A DNA stretch of 64,000 bases, taken from positions 1-64,000 of IMG/VR virus record IMGVR_UViG_3300032222_000151. One strand, given 5' to 3'. Made by a program: the position numbers and the translations under genes. Positions 4,283 through 60,400 of the stretch are shown one piece after another. A model generated the notes under the pieces. It saw only the letters and a program-made list of their open reading frames with translations, made no database searches and was not told the DNA's origin. This DNA comes from a virus. Each line of letters starts with the position of its first letter. Position 1 is the first letter of the stretch.

Positions 4283-4462
4283 CCTGGGCCCGAAAGGGCA
4301 CGTGCCATACTTTTATCAAATTGTCAAACCATAAAATCTTCAAACCAAGACATTACGAACCTCCAAAACCTTCCCCCTCCAGAAGATTACGATCCAAACC
4401 TTATATCCCCAAACCTTATACCATAGATATAAAGGTTTGTCAAACCATGTTATAATGATTAT
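4283..4462. other. Non-coding spacer rich in CAAACC and ATTACGA words
   Basis: No gene is seen. A small GCCC-GAAA-GGGC hairpin lies at 4288-4299. The remainder is built from repeated short words: CAAACC several times, ATTACGAAC at 4352-4360, ATTACGAT at 4386-4393. It ends in the -10 box of the next gene (TATAAT 4451-4456). A 20-base block around 4341-4362 is almost repeated at 5066-5086 beside the DnaA boxes. Confidence 0.5.
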
Positions 4463-4693
4463 ATGCCAAGAGATCACTTTGCTCAACTATCTAGACAAAC
4501 CTCACATAGACATGACCAACCTCATGATATAGTAACCTTTAATAAAGATATAAGTACTATATGTGGTATGTTGTATTCTATAGTTACTCTTAAGGCTTTC
4601 TTTCCTAAGTCCCCCGCCCCAGAAATGACTAACAATCCTGTTAAGGACGCTGCAAGCGGGGACTCAAAGTATACCCAATTACCCCTATGGTAA
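4463..4693 (+). CDS. Hypothetical protein, leaderless start (76 aa)
   Basis: Not recognised. The ATG lies six bases after TATAAT (4451-4456) with no ribosome binding site, matching the leaderless pattern of this genome. The -35 region is poor. The protein has a His/Asp-rich N-terminus and one short hydrophobic stretch near residues 33-46. An opposite-strand frame covers most of it, but it lacks a start signal. Reality is moderately likely. Confidence 0.45.
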   Translation: MPRDHFAQLSRQTSHRHDQPHDIVTFNKDISTICGMLYSIVTLKAFFPKSPAPEMTNNPVKDAASGDSKYTQLPLW

Positions 4694-4769
4694 ATAACAA
4701 ACCATTTATCCTGGTTTTCTAAATATTTCATATAAGTTTATTTAAATAACATTACGATTATCGACAATT

Positions 4770-4795
4770 TCTCCCTGGTTTTGGGAGATTTTTTT
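4770..4795 (+). terminator. Rho-independent terminator
   Basis: TCTCCC and GGGAGA form a 6-bp stem around TGGTTTT, followed by seven T. It closes the 4463 unit and insulates the origin-like region downstream. Confidence 0.75.
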
Positions 4796-4808
4796 GCATG
4801 AAATGGGC

Positions 4809-4837
4809 TTGACAAACCATACAAGATAGGCTATAAT
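4809..4837 (+). promoter_or_regulatory. Perfect promoter with no gene downstream (origin region, P1)
   Basis: TTGACA (4809-4814), 17 bp and TATAAT (4832-4837) form a full consensus promoter. The only ATG near the predicted start (4847) opens a five-codon frame ending at 4864, so the transcript appears non-coding. It points toward the DnaA boxes. Confidence 0.8.
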
Positions 4838-4860
4838 GCCCAAACCATGCATATGAAGGT

Positions 4861-4889
4861 TTGACAGATATGAAGGTTTGTGATACAAT
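4861..4889 (+). promoter_or_regulatory. Second tandem promoter (origin region, P2)
   Basis: TTGACA (4861-4866), 17 bp and TACAAT (4884-4889), 52 bp downstream of P1 and in the same direction. No ATG occurs between its predicted start and the DnaA boxes. Inverted CAAACC/GGTTTG words flank it. Confidence 0.75.
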
Positions 4890-4895
4890 CTGCGC

Positions 4896-5123
4896 TATCT
4901 GAATTTGGGGATATAAAGGTTTGAGGTTTGGTATTACGAACGCCCCTTATAAAAGCGCTCCCTACTCCACTATCCTCCACTTCACTCCACTTCTAAAGTG
5001 TCTAATAATATTATCAGTAAGATTAATCTGTGGATAAACCTGTGGATAACTCTATCAAAACCTCACAAACCAGACATTACGAACCTAACAATATATCTCC
5101 CAAACCTAACAACCTGTGGATAA
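4896..5123 (+). other. Candidate replication origin with three DnaA boxes
   Basis: TGTGGATAA, the complement of the DnaA box TTATCCACA, occurs at 5029-5037, 5041-5049 and 5115-5123, all in the same orientation. They sit in a 430-bp stretch without a convincing gene, next to an AT-rich segment (4700-4770 and around 5000), pyrimidine-rich CCACT repeats (4970-4995) and two promoters reading in. These are standard parts of an origin. Function is inferred. The third box touches the end of the methyltransferase gene on the other strand. Confidence 0.6.
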
Positions 5124-5657
5124 CTAAACCACTCTAGGGTCAATCCACCAATCCTCAAATGGATATAGTGGGGAGTTGCATGTAACATTTTCTCTAACTA
5201 ACTCATATCCCAAACCAGATAATAACTCTTTCTGCCTATTCTTGATATCAAGGTTTGACGCACAGTAGTATAAATCATGTTCAAATGTGATAACAGAAAA
5301 CCTGTATTTTTCCAGGGGTAAAGCAAGTAATGCCTTAAGTGAGTTCTCTGCTGGCTCGATGTCTACTTGAAGGTAATCTATCTGCTTAGGCATATCGAGC
5401 ATATAGAACAAGGTCTCATAGTCAAATGTTGTGGCATCTGCCGTATAGCACTTATTAAACCTATTGGCGTTAAACTCATTGGCCCTATCAGGATCTATCT
5501 CAAATGAGACTCCTGTCCAACCATACTCCTTCTCTAGCATATATGTATTACTTATGTCTTTAGAGTGGTATGCTCCTATTTCTACATATACCCCGCTATT
5601 TTTGCCTTTAAGGGTATCTATTACGAACTGATCTTGACCTGCTTGACTGTATCCCAT
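5124..5657 (-). CDS. FkbM-like SAM-dependent methyltransferase (177 aa)
   Basis: The N-terminus SQAGQDQFVIDTL, then GVYVEIGAYHS (SAM-binding motif I), SNTYMLEKEYGWTGVSFEID and a later YLQVDIEPAENS match the FkbM methyltransferase family, which O-methylates sugars or small molecules. It resembles the gene at 42752-43336 along its whole length, including the shared LPLEKYRFSVITFEHD and EDWW.DP blocks. The start follows TATACT by six bases (leaderless). It is isolated on the - strand between the origin and a divergent small gene. Confidence 0.8.
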   Translation of the reverse strand: MGYSQAGQDQFVIDTLKGKNSGVYVEIGAYHSKDISNTYMLEKEYGWTGVSFEIDPDRANEFNANRFNKCYTADATTFDYETLFYMLDMPKQIDYLQVDIEPAENSLKALLALPLEKYRFSVITFEHDLYYCASNLDIKNRQKELLSGLGYELVRENVTCNSPLYPFEDWWIDPRVV

Positions 5658-5686
5658 ATACTAAGTATACCTGATATACTTAAACC

Positions 5687-5818
5687 ATGGAGCCTTTAGG
5701 ATATACACAATCTATGTTAAATGTACTATGCTTTGACTGTGGCGCTATGTATCAAGTGCCCTATGGGACATCTACCCCTACTATGGTTTGTCCTAAATGT
5801 ATTACGAACCCTTCTTGA
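5687..5818 (+). CDS. Small zinc-ribbon protein, leaderless (43 aa)
   Basis: The ATG lies six bases after TATACT (5675-5680). The product has CFDC and CPKC pairs about 18 residues apart, a minimal four-cysteine ribbon, probably nucleic-acid or protein binding. Its stop codon is part of the TTGACA box of the next promoter. Divergent from the methyltransferase, with only five bases between the two -10 boxes. Confidence 0.6.
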   Translation: MEPLGYTQSMLNVLCFDCGAMYQVPYGTSTPTMVCPKCITNPS

Positions 5819-5843
5819 CATTCCCCGCCAAACCTGAGATAAT
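5815..5843 (+). promoter_or_regulatory. Promoter for HNH gene, overlaps previous stop codon
   Basis: TTGACA (5815-5820), 17 bp, GATAAT (5838-5843), then six bases to ATG 5850. The TGA inside TTGACA ends the upstream gene, so stop codon and -35 box share bases. Confidence 0.75.
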
Positions 5844-5849
5844 GGTTTG

Positions 5850-6296
5850 ATGTATGCTAACTGTGGAACCTATGCTGGCTATCGTAAACATCATAATCAC
5901 AAGACTAAACCATGCCTTGAGTGTTTATCTGCAGCAAGTCTATACAACAGGTTGAGATATCAGAAAAACAATCGTGCTCATATAACAGCCAAGTATCGTG
6001 CTTCAAACCTTGATAAGGTAAGAGAGCGAGAGCGATCCAAGAATAGAAGACGCAGAGCAAACATTACGAACCCTTATAATGAATCCCAGGTCATCGCCTC
6101 TTATGGTGATATATGCTACTTATGTGGATTAGGCATTGATCTTCTGGCTCCCCGAAAATGTGGGATAGATGGTTGGGAGAATGGTTTGCACATAGACCAT
6201 GTTTTGCCTATATCTAAAGGTGGGGCTGATGCTTTAGAAAATGTTAGGCCTACGCATGGTTTGTGCAATCTAAAGAAATACGCAAATGTAGGATAG
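5850..6296 (+). CDS. HNH endonuclease (148 aa)
   Basis: The C-terminal half has CYLCG, then HIDHVLPISKGG (the His-rich beta hairpin of HNH nucleases), an Asn near NVRPTHG and CNLKK, i.e. the full zinc-plus-HNH arrangement. The N-terminus has a separate metal-like pattern (CGTYAGYRKHHNH...CLEC) typical of phage proteins with a GTxxGYxxH motif. Likely a free-standing phage HNH nuclease that nicks or cuts DNA. The start follows the -10 box by six bases; a TTG three bases earlier was rejected. Confidence 0.85.
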   Translation: MYANCGTYAGYRKHHNHKTKPCLECLSAASLYNRLRYQKNNRAHITAKYRASNLDKVRERERSKNRRRRANITNPYNESQVIASYGDICYLCGLGIDLLAPRKCGIDGWENGLHIDHVLPISKGGADALENVRPTHGLCNLKKYANVG

Positions 6297-6397
6297 TAAC
6301 CACTAGTGCCCGCTTAGGGCATAGGAAGGTTTGTTAACTCTATTTTGCGCCGAACTTTAAAACAAAGAACATAACTGATGTATGATACAATAAAATT

Positions 6398-8175: not shown

Positions 8176-8390
8176 TGCCTATCCATGTTCCTATCTATGT
8201 CAATGACAAGTTAATTAAAACATATCATATTGGCAGGATATCTGGTGATACCAACCCAGATTCTATTAATGCTTATTTAATTGTAGAAGATGACCAACTT
8301 TGGCATGTAGGTAAAAAGTTTACTCACAGATACGGAGATAGCATTGAGACTTGCATTACCCTGGGTCTTAGTGCTATGATGGATACATGA
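8175..8390 (+). CDS. Hypothetical protein (71 aa)
   Basis: Not recognised. MPIHVPIYVNDKLI starts behind TTGGAGGATACTA; the longer frame starting at 8157 was rejected for this reason. Predicted mostly beta-strand with a DDQLWHVGKKF segment. Overlaps the following ATG by four bases (ATGA). Confidence 0.6.
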   Translation: MPIHVPIYVNDKLIKTYHIGRISGDTNPDSINAYLIVEDDQLWHVGKKFTHRYGDSIETCITLGLSAMMDT

Positions 8391-9063: not shown

Positions 9064-9314
9064 CACACGATGAATTGGTAGAAGAGTTGGATAGATGGAT
9101 TAGATTTCTTCATGACAACAACAAGGGAAAGTCTTGGGTAAAGGCAATTCGTTCAGTAGTAGAATTACATAAGCCTGTTATGCAATGGAGTGGTGGGTAT
9201 GATGGAGAAGAAAATCCATTATATGCAGAACAGTGCACTGATTGTTCAGCCAATGGTTTTACACAAGAATACCCTTGCCAAACTATTCAGGCTATTGAGA
9301 AGGAACTTAATTAG
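9060..9314 (+). CDS. MTHDEL-family protein, copy 1 (84 aa)
   Basis: Begins MTHDELVEELD and ends CQTIQAIEKELN, with AIRSVVELHKPV in the middle and a CTDC pair before the end. The gene at 9780 has the same start, middle and end, and the genes at 9317 and 9499 share one end each, so a small family has been duplicated and shuffled here. Similar proteins ending PCPTIQAIEKEL are known to me from uncultured phage sequences, without known function. The final codons contain AAGGA, the ribosome binding site for what follows. Confidence 0.7.
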   Translation: MTHDELVEELDRWIRFLHDNNKGKSWVKAIRSVVELHKPVMQWSGGYDGEENPLYAEQCTDCSANGFTQEYPCQTIQAIEKELN

Positions 9315-9316
9315 TT

Positions 9317-9502
9317 GTGGGTCAGCAATGTGGTGACAAGACTGCATACAGAACTAAATATTATGCAGAAAAAGTACTTGGAATTATGTGGAAGAATGCC
9401 GTTAACACTAAAAAAAGAAGTTTACCTTGCAGGACATATAAATGTAACATTTGTAAAAGATGGCACCTTACAAGTAAGGCTATTGAAAAGGAGTTAGGAT
9501 GA
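9317..9502 (+). CDS. Zinc-ribbon protein with grafted AIEKEL end (61 aa)
   Basis: The GTG start (9317) directly follows the previous stop. The body has CGDK, then YRTKYYAEKVL, and a C-terminal YKCNICKRWHLTSK, a ribbon found in short phage proteins (CxxK...C..C..WHLTS). It then ends AIEKELG, the tail of the MTHDEL family, which suggests recombination between neighbours. This frame was chosen over the overlapping one at 9315 because of the recognisable ribbon. Confidence 0.65.
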   Translation: MGQQCGDKTAYRTKYYAEKVLGIMWKNAVNTKKRSLPCRTYKCNICKRWHLTSKAIEKELG

Positions 9503-9780
9503 AAGGCTTTATCAAAGATGAAATACCAAGTAGGTGGGATGAAAATAGGATGACCCACGATGAATTGCCACCACTTTCAACAATAGACCGCAAAGATAAA
9601 TTGATTCTTTGGTTAGCAACATATGTGCTTGAACAGGGCAAATGGAATTATGATGATTTTTATGAATTACTTGAAAGTCACTTTGCGCTTGTATCTACTT
9701 GGCGAAAATTAGAAAACAAACACGCAAAATTACCCGAAGGCTATGAGCCAACAAACACACGCACGATTGAGAGATTCTAA
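9499..9780 (+). CDS. MTHDEL-family related protein (93 aa)
   Basis: ATG 9499 lies behind AAGGAGTTAGG, which is the end of the upstream gene. A second possible ATG at 9550 would give a protein beginning MTHDELPPLS, like its neighbours. The rest differs: a helical domain (LILWLATYVLEQGKW...YELLESHF). It looks like a fusion of the shared MTHDEL start with an unrelated C-terminus. Function unknown. Confidence 0.6.
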   Translation: MKGFIKDEIPSRWDENRMTHDELPPLSTIDRKDKLILWLATYVLEQGKWNYDDFYELLESHFALVSTWRKLENKHAKLPEGYEPTNTRTIERF

Positions 9781-9989: not shown

Positions 9990-10213
9990 TACCTCCAATT
10001 GAGTCTATTAGTTTTAATATTGGTAAGCCTAAGCGTAAGAATAGGGGTGAACTTGACTTTACCGTCAAAAAGCAGGGGGAAGAAGTTTGGTTATATTGCA
10101 ATGGATGTAAAGCAAGTTACTCTTATGAAATGTTTAAAAATGATAGAGAACATTTCTTTAAAATACATAGTTTTTATCACAGAAAAGTTGCAGAAGAAAA
10201 AGGTAAAAAATAA
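9986..10213 (+). CDS. Basic zinc-finger-like protein (75 aa)
   Basis: The GTG start overlaps the previous TGA (GTGA) and sits 6 bases after AAGGAG. CNGC near residue 38 and two His (HSFYH) near residue 61 make a C2H2-like metal site. Lys-rich at both ends, so nucleic-acid binding is possible. No family is recognised. Confidence 0.6.
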   Translation: MIPPIESISFNIGKPKRKNRGELDFTVKKQGEEVWLYCNGCKASYSYEMFKNDREHFFKIHSFYHRKVAEEKGKK

Positions 10214-10461
10214 TGCCTGGTATTGCTCCTGGAATCCCATTTGTTCATGTAAGACCTAATGATGAACCAGATGTTGCCTGTCAATTAGTTGTTCCTCAAG
10301 GATCATCATCTGAAGGTTTAGAGTGTGTCGTTCAGCATACCGTCATAACTAATGGTGGAGAACAGTTAATGTTTGGCTTGCTATGGGCTGGTTTTTTTGC
10401 TATACTTATTGGAGTATTTATCTTAAATGATAAAATAACAGAGACAAGGGGTAGAAAATGA
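10213..10461 (+). CDS. Small membrane protein (82 aa)
   Basis: The N-terminal 50 residues are polar and Pro-rich. A single hydrophobic helix follows (about residues 53-72, MFGLLWAGFFAILIGVFIL), then a short charged tail, so an N-out/C-in membrane protein is likely. No family is recognised. TAATG and ATGA overlaps link it to both neighbours. Confidence 0.6.
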   Translation: MPGIAPGIPFVHVRPNDEPDVACQLVVPQGSSSEGLECVVQHTVITNGGEQLMFGLLWAGFFAILIGVFILNDKITETRGRK

Positions 10462-14395: not shown

Positions 14396-14467
14396 CATTT
14401 TATGGAACAATGCTTGAATCATTGTTTCTTTTGTAGTATAATAGAAGACTAGAGAAAAGGATTTTAA

Positions 14468-14911
14468 ATGAACGTATATGAATATGTTTTTAGAGATAGT
14501 GAAGGAAGAGATATCCTGCTTGAAGAGTTTAAGGATAAAAATATCCTTATTGTAAATACGGCAAGCAACTGTGGTTTTACAAGACAGTATAATGACCTAC
14601 AGAGATTGACATCAAGAGAAGATCTTCAGATCATTGCCTTTCCTTGCAACCAGTTTGGAGAACAAGAGCCTGGGACAGACGAAGAAATAAAAGATTTTTG
14701 TGTATCAAATTATGGAGTTTCTTTTCCAATTGCCTTAAAGGTTGATGTTAATGGAGAAAAAGAACACCCACTTTATAGACACCTAAAAGATTCTTCTAAG
14801 AATGGTCAAGACATAGGTTGGAACTTTGAAAAGTTTTTGATAAAAACTGATGGAACTGTAATAAACTTTTTATCAGATGTTAAGCCAGACGACATACTAA
14901 ACCATATCTAA
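14468..14911 (+). CDS. Glutathione peroxidase family thiol peroxidase (147 aa)
   Basis: NTASNCGFTRQY carries the peroxidatic Cys (about residue 37, Cys instead of selenocysteine), FPCNQFGEQEPG the Gln of the catalytic tetrad, and WNFEKFL the Trp and Asn. Bacterial Cys-type members reduce hydroperoxides, usually with thioredoxin. Length matches the short bacterial members. AAAAGGA precedes the ATG, with TATAAT at about 14436. It belongs with AhpC, AhpD and thioredoxin genes in this genome; rare in phages. Confidence 0.9.
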   Translation: MNVYEYVFRDSEGRDILLEEFKDKNILIVNTASNCGFTRQYNDLQRLTSREDLQIIAFPCNQFGEQEPGTDEEIKDFCVSNYGVSFPIALKVDVNGEKEHPLYRHLKDSSKNGQDIGWNFEKFLIKTDGTVINFLSDVKPDDILNHI

Positions 14912-57413: not shown

Positions 57414-60400
57414 CTATACCACCTCACTTAAGAACAATGTCATGTCTGGCCCATCTGGACCTTTTGTATAATCTATATTATATACTACAAACCTACTTGA
57501 TGGTGATGACACCATGCTTACACCCTTTTCTTCATAGTCAAGTGTAACGATATCTCCAAGTTGTATTGTTGGTATTGCAAAAATCTTAACTCCTACAGAC
57601 CTTCTAGGCTTGGTTATTTTTTCAACAAGCCACTTCATCAAGGTGTTTGCTTCATCATAAGACTGAATATATGGTGTGTCTAAAGCAAAATCCATTTTAC
57701 CGTATGTCATTCTGCTTAACTTTATGTCCTGATAGTCTTGTTTAAATTTATATGGATTAGATATTAATTTTTCTGCAGCAAACTCAGGATTTGACAACAT
57801 ACTATTTCTATTAAAATATTCATCAAGAGTTATCTTGTTTTCAGACTCCTGAGTAAATGTAACGCCCTGAACTCTAAGATAGTTTCCAGTTGTCTCATCT
57901 AGACTTATGGCTGTGTCTGTTGCATTAAATATTATGAACTCTGCGCCGTATGAGCCAGCCCTGAATCCTGATACAACATACCCCTTTATTTTATTAAAGG
58001 TTGGAGATATTTTTGCTGTTAAGGCTGGGAAGGCTTTGTCATACTTAAAGTTAAATGTTGCTGCTTCTCTCATTATGCTTCCAAACTCTTCAAAATATAT
58101 TTTATACTTTGGTGCTTCGGAAGTTCCAATTCCAGATAGATATGTGTTTTGAATTAGTCCGCTAAGAGCATACTTTCTGAAAGATTCATTGACATCAATA
58201 TCTGAGTCTCCAAAAACTGAGTTGACTGGCGCACCAAGAGAGAATGTGGTGTTCTGTGAATAGTTGTTGCACAGAGCATAGACATTTTCAAACATAGCCC
58301 TTGATGATCCTCGTGAGAACAAAGCAATGTTTGAGTATACTGGCAGTGGCTCAAGGTCATCTACAGTCTTAATTAGTCTGCCATTCATGTATAGGTAGAA
58401 TCTTCTTGTTCTCCCTATGTCTTCATATTCTACTGCTAAATCGTATACCGTTGGATTTTCCTCAGCAACAATTCTTGACTGTCCTGTAAATCTTCCATCG
58501 TCAACAGTGATCTGACCAAGACCATCCCACAACTTTACTGGGATTGCCTTTCCGTTTTCTGATTTAATCTTATAAAAGAAAACATTGCTTACAGTTTCTC
58601 TTTCTTCTTCAGAAAGATTTCCAACTCCTAGAGCAGCAATTTCAAAGTAGTATCCTACGTTTGTTGTTGGATTTAGCATGAAAGCAAGACCACCAGAACC
58701 TCCAGATATATTAATGTTTTTATCTGGTGTGCTACCCTTTACAACATAATATGTAGAAGATCCATTTGATGTTTGTCCTCTGTCAGCATTGTTTTCTATC
58801 TTGCCAACTAGTCTCATTCTTGTTCCAAAATGCTTGTATTTGTTTTCCTCTAACGATCTATGAACGTAAGAGATAAAGTCTCTTGGCTTTTCTTTAGTGG
58901 TAAAGTTTGGTCCAGTAAGAGAGAGCGCTGAAGACTGAAGTGTTCCACTTTGAACCTGGGTAGAAGTGTTAACCTCTTCTATAAAAGATGTTGACATAAA
59001 GTTTTTAATAATTCCGCTTCTAGAAGAAGTTCGTGCTAGAGCATCTGAAGAAACTCCAGCCCCAGTTGTTTTACCTGCTGCAGAAATTGTTGTTGTTGGA
59101 ATTGTCAAATCTTTTTCAAATAGATATTCTGATGCCATAGAGCATCCCTTAACGTTATCGTCTGACTTCCAGTAATCTGCTATTCCAGCAGAGTGTGCAA
59201 CAATCTGAGTTCCAAACTGACCACGACCATGCTTTTGAACATCTCCATTTTGTAAGGCGATGACTCCATCCTTCTCAAAATACTTTGGCTCAGAATATAT
59301 TCTTACTAGGCCAGTTGGATATATCTTTCCATTAAATGGCAACTTTGCAAAATAGTTTTGATAATCTTCTGTAGATGTTATCCACACATTGCCAAACCCA
59401 GAAACATTATATTGCACTGCATCATACTTTATAATTTCTCCTTGAGAGTAAAAGTATCCATTGTATCGTGTAATCCAGTAGGCTGCTTCTCCAAGACTAA
59501 GAGTATTGTTTATAACAATATTGTTTTTAACAACTGGAACATCTGCTGAAAGATCTGAGTTTAAAGGAATTGCACTTAGAACATATGCTGATTGAGTTCC
59601 TACTTCATTATTGATAGACTTTGTATTTTGACTTCCAGAAACTTCCCATAGCAGTGATGGCTTATATGTGTAGTATCTTTCATTATCTACAAGGCTTGCT
59701 TGTCTTAAAGATCCAATAGATCTTTGAATATGTCTTACCTTATAATTTATTACTCCGTCATTATATACAGAGTTGGCTTGTGTTGATACAGAAATTATGT
59801 TAGCCAACTTTGTCTTTGTTGTTTTGTTTTTAAGTTCTCGATCTTCTATAAAATCTTGTGTTCCCTGGAGTGCAAAGGTGGCTGGTCTTTGTGCTGCAGT
59901 TGGCATAATGTAGTCTTTACTCATCATTACAAAGTTGTTGTATTCGTCAAAAAACATTGCTGTCTGAGTTGATATAGCCAAATCCTGAAGAACCTGTGCA
60001 ACACTTTTATCTGGAGCAACAAAAAAATATGGAATAATTATTTCTTTTTCGTTCGCCACTCTTTTAAATGTATAGTTTGAAAATCCTATATGGTCTAAAA
60101 GCAAAGATACTGCAGAACTTACTGACACTTCTGTCATTAAAATTTCTGGAGCAGTTAATGACTCAAGGTACCAATACATATCTCTAAGAGACATTGACAC
60201 ACGCTTTGACATTAGATCTTGCTTTGGAAATGAGTCTGAGTATAGCGTCTTTATTGGAACATAATAATCCCAACCATCCACATCAACAATTACCTCATAA
60301 AACTTAAACTGAGCATGCCTGTTAATATACTTTGAAATAATGCTAGTTGTATTATTAGAGTTAAAGGCTTGATCATAATCAAATAAAGTTATCTGTCCAT

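Follow-up and report, generated by a model that had tools for sequence, protein, structure and literature searches.

Little is known of what decides where and when replication starts in large lytic phages that encode a replisome, and the question is raised here by a noncoding stretch of phage DNA in which DnaA boxes of the host type lie in the path of strong promoters. The window, meaning the whole stretch of DNA that was analysed, comprises bases 1 to 64,000 of a virus record of 118,809 bases (118.8 kb). The ends of the record overlap exactly by 123 bp, so the record is probably complete: either the molecule is circular or its terminal repeat has been collapsed. Rightward frames predominate from about 109.5 kb across the join to about 21 kb, and leftward frames between about 23 kb and about 109 kb.

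In tblastn searches against named phages, the best named relatives of the terminase (55 % identity) and of an early protein (53 % identity) were Streptomyces phages of the Stanwilliamsviridae. The early protein, which we take to be of the DUF932 type, matches PHROG 1221, a family without assigned function. Kinship with the Stanwilliamsviridae was assigned from terminase and early-gene homology together with a comparable genome size, and is a kinship by homology, not by formal taxonomic thresholds. The phage is a large, lytic one, probably of an actinobacterial host, the host assignment being drawn from the named relatives only. A scan of genome contigs gave a single match, a contig (L243) labelled as a Chitinophagaceae MAG that carries the DUF932-type gene and the box pair of the window's phage, and here phage DNA has probably been mis-binned.

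The phage encodes a DNA polymerase (the PHROGs designation; presumably of the DnaE type), a DnaB-like helicase, a primase, a UvsX-like recombinase, a single-strand binding protein and a resolvase. The initial annotation had recognised no phage initiator beside this replisome, and the searches agree: the DnaA C-terminal domain (PF08299) was absent from all 11 phage records, the control being positive in 10 of 14 genomes, and no initiator, Rep-type proteins included, was recognised among 20 phage proteins scanned against PHROGs. As the scan covered 20 proteins, it may have overlooked an initiator of unusual type. The open-access literature yielded no description of a DnaA-box origin in Stanwilliamsviridae-type phages; Ori-Finder predictions with DnaA boxes are already published for another phage, as described in PMC11512268.

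DnaA boxes and the conserved noncoding block

The three co-oriented boxes within 95 bp that had first drawn attention to the locus are present (Table 1), each a perfect match to TTATCCACA that reads TGTGGATAA on the + strand, where perfect means identity to TTATCCACA and the consensus of the true host may differ. The cluster is far beyond chance. The window holds four copies, the fourth at 59378, against 0.86 expected from shuffles, and 300 Markov-1 sequences of 64 kb never contained more than one box per 95-bp stretch; a same-strand TTATCCACA pair 10 to 13 bp apart occurs in 72 of the 81 loci described below, and 100 permuted 9-mers gave none in any locus. The record as a whole carries nine perfect boxes, seven within about 10.5 kb around the join, and a second tandem pair (118491/118503) lies beyond the window, upstream of the next conserved gene. 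Box 3 adjoins the 3' end of a minus-strand frame (5124-5657) whose product, presumably FkbM-methyltransferase-like, had no PHROGs match. The surroundings had been described as free of genes, which is safe for about 4694-5123 but not further left, because 4463-4693 carries a doubtful 76-aa frame.

Table 1 Features of the candidate origin region (positions in the window)
Feature	Position	Strand	Basis
Conserved noncoding block, candidate phage replication origin	4657..5057	+	Alignment of 51 distinct sequences, conservation profile
AT-rich, helically unstable segment 1, possible unwinding element	4720..4749	.	Stability ranking
Intrinsic-terminator-like hairpin followed by T-run	4770..4795	+	Read from sequence; partly conserved
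Promoter 1, TTGACA-N17-TATAAT, perfect	4809..4837	+	Sequence, relatives
Five-codon frame after promoter 1, probably not functional	4847..4864	+	Sequence; ATG not conserved in consensus
Promoter 2, TTGACA-N17-TACAAT	4861..4889	+	Sequence
ATTACGAAC motif, about 96 bp before box pair	4933..4941	+	ATTACG invariant in relatives
Three CTCCAC(T) repeats, 10-bp phase	4966..4990	+	Sequence, relatives
AT-rich segment 2 with invariant TCAGTAA (5014-5020)	5000..5028	.	Eight consecutive N-A-N DnaA-trio-like triplets from box
DnaA box 1, TTATCCACA	5029..5037	-	Sequence match, kept in relatives
DnaA box 2, TTATCCACA, tandem to box 1 (12 bp)	5041..5049	-	Sequence match, relatives
DnaA box 3, TTATCCACA, variable flank	5115..5123	-	Sequence match

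The other elements named in the initial annotation are likewise in place. The two strong promoters have the positions claimed, and the five-codon frame, the AT-rich stretch and the terminator upstream of the boxes can be read directly. When the 30-bp windows of the 64 kb are ranked by stability, only 0.01 % fall below that at 4720 and 0.59 % below that at 5000. Six of the eight copies of ATTACGAAC in the record fall at 4352-6063. The sequence GGTTTG/CAAACC is strongly clustered, with about 23 sites in 2 kb at 4325-6328 of the window and further sites at 110.8-111.2 kb of the record; the cluster overlaps the promoters of the block, and its sites are possibly the operator of some regulator.

Relatives, from freshwater, were obtained by scanning IMG/VR with the DUF932-type protein, and the best 80 of 403 matches plus the window gave 81 loci, of which 14 end before or inside the range of the element and 67 are informative. 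Failure of the boxes to recur at similar spacing in relatives had been named as grounds for abandoning an origin here, and the comparison was run. The tandem TGTGGATAA pair is kept in 61 of the 67 informative loci, 3-7 kb downstream of the DUF932-type gene, and its spacing is either 11 bp (39 loci) or 12 bp (22 loci). A third box follows within 300 bp in 53 of the 61 loci, most commonly 32-34 bp after box 2. Boxes do not, however, occur in every relative that keeps the element: two loci have altered boxes (L040, with a spacing of 21, and L079, with a degenerate second box), and four (L081, L084, L085 and L088) have no box there and retain the promoter, ATTACG, TCAGTAA and the AT-rich core. On the DUF932 tree these four represent at least three separate changes.

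Conservation extends over a block of about 400 bp in 51 distinct sequences and stops abruptly beyond the pair. The order within the block is an AT-rich stretch, the terminator, the promoter, ATTACG, pyrimidine-rich repeats, the AT-rich TCAGTAA segment and the pair. ATTACG and TCAGTAA are invariant in all 50 rows of alignment A1, which omits one of the 51 sequences (L042), and the CTCCAC repeat array is missing in five of 51 (L044, L047, L068, L075 and L077). Unstable AT-rich DNA adjoins the boxes throughout: the box-proximal segment is in the least stable 1 % of its own locus in 46 of 51 relatives and in the least stable 5 % in all 51, and AT-rich segment 1 is in the least stable 1 % in 42 of 51.

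To the right of the pair, downstream of 5057 in the window, the relatives differ completely and carry frames in either orientation. This region appears from the sequences compared to be a gene-exchange hot spot, with a sharp left border near TCAGTAAGATT.

Predicted transcription through the block and the DNA beside the boxes

A promoter of the sigma-70 type aimed at the boxes, with at most one mismatch to TTGACA-N17-TATAAT, was found in 51 of 51 distinct relatives, and a second site of this quality, counted by eye, in 19 of 51 rows. The first downstream frame lies on the minus strand in 30 of 49 loci, so the promoter is not mainly for the next gene. A strong and conserved promoter that mostly faces an opposing frame and crosses unstable AT-rich DNA would, by analogy, be the expected look of a transcriptionally activated origin. 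Replication of phage lambda uses its own O and P proteins, whereas the present locus has boxes for the host initiator and no initiator of the lambda kind was recognised among the 20 scanned proteins. The likeness lies in the promoter, which at the lambda origin transcribes past the origin in what PMC5043065 describes as transcriptional activation, and which here reads through the repeats and the AT-rich region.

The initial annotation had also proposed that the promoters might give a primer RNA. In a structured, ColE1-like form this proposal was dropped: the RNA from promoter 1 towards the pair showed no stable structure (fold z-scores of +1.26 and +1.11), and Rfam gave no family other than tRNAs.

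Tandem, co-oriented TTATCCACA boxes adjoining AT-rich DNA recall bacterial origins with a basal unwinding system (BUS), such as that of Bacillus subtilis, and the polarity of boxes and AT-rich DNA equals that of Escherichia coli R1 and its AT-rich 13-mers. In the BUS, as PMC8287927 and PMC10721633 describe it, tandem boxes hand DnaA on to triplets whose middle base is adenine. The general search pattern given in PMC8287927 (a box, a spacer of 0-16 bp and, on the appropriate strand, three or more N-A-N triplets) occurs beside the pair. Runs of at least five N-A-N triplets were found in 43 of 45 distinct flanks, in constant phase (starting 2 or 5 nt away from the box), against five of 234 other boxes of these loci and none of 61 on the opposite side of the pair, where the longest run was four. 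Over 39 distinct 40-base flanks, T on the box strand occupies the central position in 86 % of cases on average and the third position in 16 %, the third position being the most variable of the triplet.

The triplets depart from the stricter trio consensus of the 3'-GAT-5' type, which PMC7561715 gives as 3'-[G/A]A[T/A]-5', repeated more than three times in succession after a GC cluster; reading of the window revealed no run of three such trios. The locus further differs from a bacterial oriC in lying on a phage and in that some relatives have no boxes yet retain the AT-rich core. Since the four box-less relatives keep the AT-rich segment, DnaA trios alone do not account for its conservation.

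Box clusters in named Stanwilliamsviridae

Ten Stanwilliamsviridae records, chosen from the hit lists to span both subfamilies out of 127 Streptomyces records with a terminase match, were compared, with Rhodococcus phage Grayson as outgroup. Eight of the ten (Samisti12, Karimac, Gilson, Kenrey, BillNye, Beuffert, TunaTartare and Karp) resemble the window in having a cluster of two to four perfect TTATCCACA boxes that spans about 300 bp or less. It lies close to the right end, in a large noncoding stretch (at about 122.9 kb in Samisti12 and 121.0 kb in Gilson), and the whole record has no second such cluster. Bmoc has one perfect and one one-mismatch box in its noncoding stretch near the right end, and no box cluster was found in the whole records of Tomas and Grayson. 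Same-direction TTTACGA repeats, comparable to ATTACGAAC of the window, are present in the stretches read for Bmoc, Samisti12 and Gilson. These clusters differ from that of the window in box order and spacing, the third box being 252-255 bp away in five of six Loccivirinae, in a GC content of 50-55 % and in the lack of trio-like DNA, the named Streptomyces phages having no trios and runs of only one to three. The form TTGTCCACA, which we take to be the Streptomyces form of the DnaA box, shows no clustering in the large noncoding stretch in any of the 11 named records.

The terminal repeats were compared with the positions of the boxes. In Samisti12, Karimac and Bmoc the terminal repeats measure 10.7-12.6 kb, and the boxes lie outside them, at most about 115 bp away. 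The six Loccivirinae (Gilson, Kenrey, BillNye, Beuffert, TunaTartare and Karp) have repeats of 0.7-2.3 kb and hold the cluster 5-7 kb from the right one; the cluster is therefore a family trait that is not tied to the end of the repeat.

A separate observation concerns the DNA between boxes 2 and 3 in Loccivirinae (Gilson 121.0-121.3 kb, Kenrey 122.4-122.7 kb and their kin; L217, L242 and L239), where about 240 bp look conserved and of constant length; the distance from the second to the third box is 255 bp in four of the six. This is possibly another kind of conserved noncoding element.

A candidate origin and the alternatives to it

We consider it probable, at about 0.6, that the block at 4657-5057 is the replication origin of a lytic phage related to the Stanwilliamsviridae, activated by transcription and recruiting host DnaA. 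The initial annotation had gone further and suggested DnaA-dependent initiation. Conservation of the boxes, the promoter and the absence of a phage DnaA domain speak for this, but four relatives keep the core without boxes, which is the strongest result against strict DnaA dependence, and "DnaA-recruiting" is therefore the safer term.

We infer the origin itself, and each step of binding and melting that follows, from sequence anatomy and conservation. Host RNA polymerase would start at the promoter or promoters at 4809 and 4861 and transcribe rightwards, with the terminator insulating the left side, and its passage would alter supercoiling and help to melt 5000-5028, and perhaps 4720-4749, in the manner of the lambda origin. 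Host DnaA would bind the tandem boxes at 5029 and 5041, and the box at 5115, and load onto the adjoining AT-rich strand, and a further phage or host factor would read the invariant core motifs (ATTACG, TCAGTAA and usually the CTCCACT repeats). DnaA and the core-motif factor may then help to place the phage DnaB-like helicase, and from there the primase and polymerase of the phage would take over.

A GC-skew turning point near 5 kb had been suggested as a check. The cumulative raw skew has its turns elsewhere, near 23 kb and at 92-110 kb, tracking gene direction. Third-position GC skew of + frames steps from a mean of -0.060 upstream to +0.072 downstream of the pair in 35 of 36 loci, a count that includes near-identical loci and perhaps the window. 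Genes differ on either side of the pair, so this step may reflect gene content, and minus-strand genes gave no clean two-fork pattern. GC skew was accordingly set aside as proof of an origin, the strand-corrected third-position step being only suggestive.

An origin read by a phage-coded initiator alone, with DnaA boxes as optional helpers as in some iteron plasmids, overlaps with the favoured explanation and is less probable. It would account for the core that is conserved without boxes in four of 67 loci and for the invariance of ATTACG and TCAGTAA, and it has precedents: PMC4980987 describes iteron-plasmid origins at which DnaA can act merely as a helper, and origins, those of RK2 and R1, at which it is dispensable. 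The origins of P1, RK2 (oriV) and pSC101 share with the block short phased repeats, an AT-rich segment and adjoining DnaA boxes. The repeats of the block are, however, 7-bp words at a 10-bp phase that five of 51 relatives lack, against iterons of 17-22 bp, a strong promoter reads through it, and the scan of 20 proteins revealed neither a Rep nor any other initiator; moreover, 61 of 67 loci do retain the box pair. The boxes could instead serve gene control, with host DnaA repressing or activating early phage promoters and no replication starting at the block. Further early intergenic modules of these phages (terminator, palindrome, DnaA box, promoter) do contain DnaA boxes, of 199 boxes outside the pair 141 are intergenic, a location shared by 29 % of random sites, and the third box directly follows TTGACA, within a promoter spacer, in eight of 53 loci. 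We regard this reading as unlikely for the pair at 5029/5041, which lies about 185 bp downstream of the expected start of promoter 1 and thus outside the promoter; the first downstream gene is on the opposite strand in the 30 of 49 loci already noted, and the other boxes show no preference for TTGACA/TATAAT-like sites, 5 % lying within 60 bp of one against 15 % at random.

Box counts by themselves do not decide the matter. Tandem box pairs were found in at least 120 stretches of IMG/VR at large, and among the 80 loci listed there are 88 pairs, of which three share the core of the window by CTCCAC count. Because tandem pairs are common in viral contigs generally, boxes alone weigh less as evidence for an origin, and with the boxes of the other early modules added, a box by itself is not the mark of one. 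The same sites multiplied by phage copies might act as a sponge that starves host oriC of DnaA and stops host initiation, in the manner of datA, a DnaA-titrating site. The nine boxes of the record with their concentration around the join, and the concentration of the relatives' boxes outside the pair at -8 to -3 kb and -0.2 kb of the DUF932-type gene, would agree with titration, but four to 13 boxes per record are few, and titration would require neither an invariant promoter and AT-rich segments nor ATTACG and TCAGTAA at a fixed distance, so that we judge it very unlikely. Less credible still is an injection-stop or terminus signal like that of phage T5, which in the cited text of PMC13250531 is said to hold repeats, palindromes and DnaA boxes. 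It was raised by the Samistivirus-type boxes that flank the long repeat in Samisti12, Karimac and Bmoc, and was weakened by the six Loccivirinae, in which the clusters do not follow the end of the short repeats; judged on these six, the site is not at the inner end of a long terminal repeat as it is in the T5 type.

If the favoured reading of the block as a DnaA-recruiting origin is right, it concerns a short, specific element with a counterpart in cultivated Streptomyces relatives, and the dependence of a virulent phage on the master initiator of its host becomes directly testable, the box-less relatives serving as natural mutants for DnaA dependence. A wider generalisation is offered as conjecture: large lytic actinobacterial phages with their own polymerase, helicase and primase might, as a family-wide habit, leave origin firing to host DnaA at a transcription-switched, oriC-like element made of tandem boxes and trio-like unwinding DNA. 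Copying of the phage genome would then be tied to the DnaA state of the host, and DnaA would also be drawn from the host chromosome.

Further features of the early region were noted. A repeated regulatory module occurs at 9290-9540, 10190-10440 and 14440-14620 of locus L011, in the order terminator, palindrome, DnaA box or boxes, TTTAAG-TGTG-like stretch, TTACGG motif and TTGTCA..TATACT-like promoter. The early region (112 kb across the join to 4.3 kb) contains all seven CACGTG copies of the record, several of them right after terminators, at 1092 and 4299 of the window and at 8212, 9307, 10217, 11682 and 14480 of L011 (record 112212-118480), and many other GC-rich palindromic hexamers are absent from the entire record. 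Some relatives carry other palindromes in the same region: among 38 loci, GACGTC is present in 7-12 copies in four and in 0-1 copies in the rest, CCTAGG in 8-10 copies in two, and GCCGGC in 5-6 copies in three.
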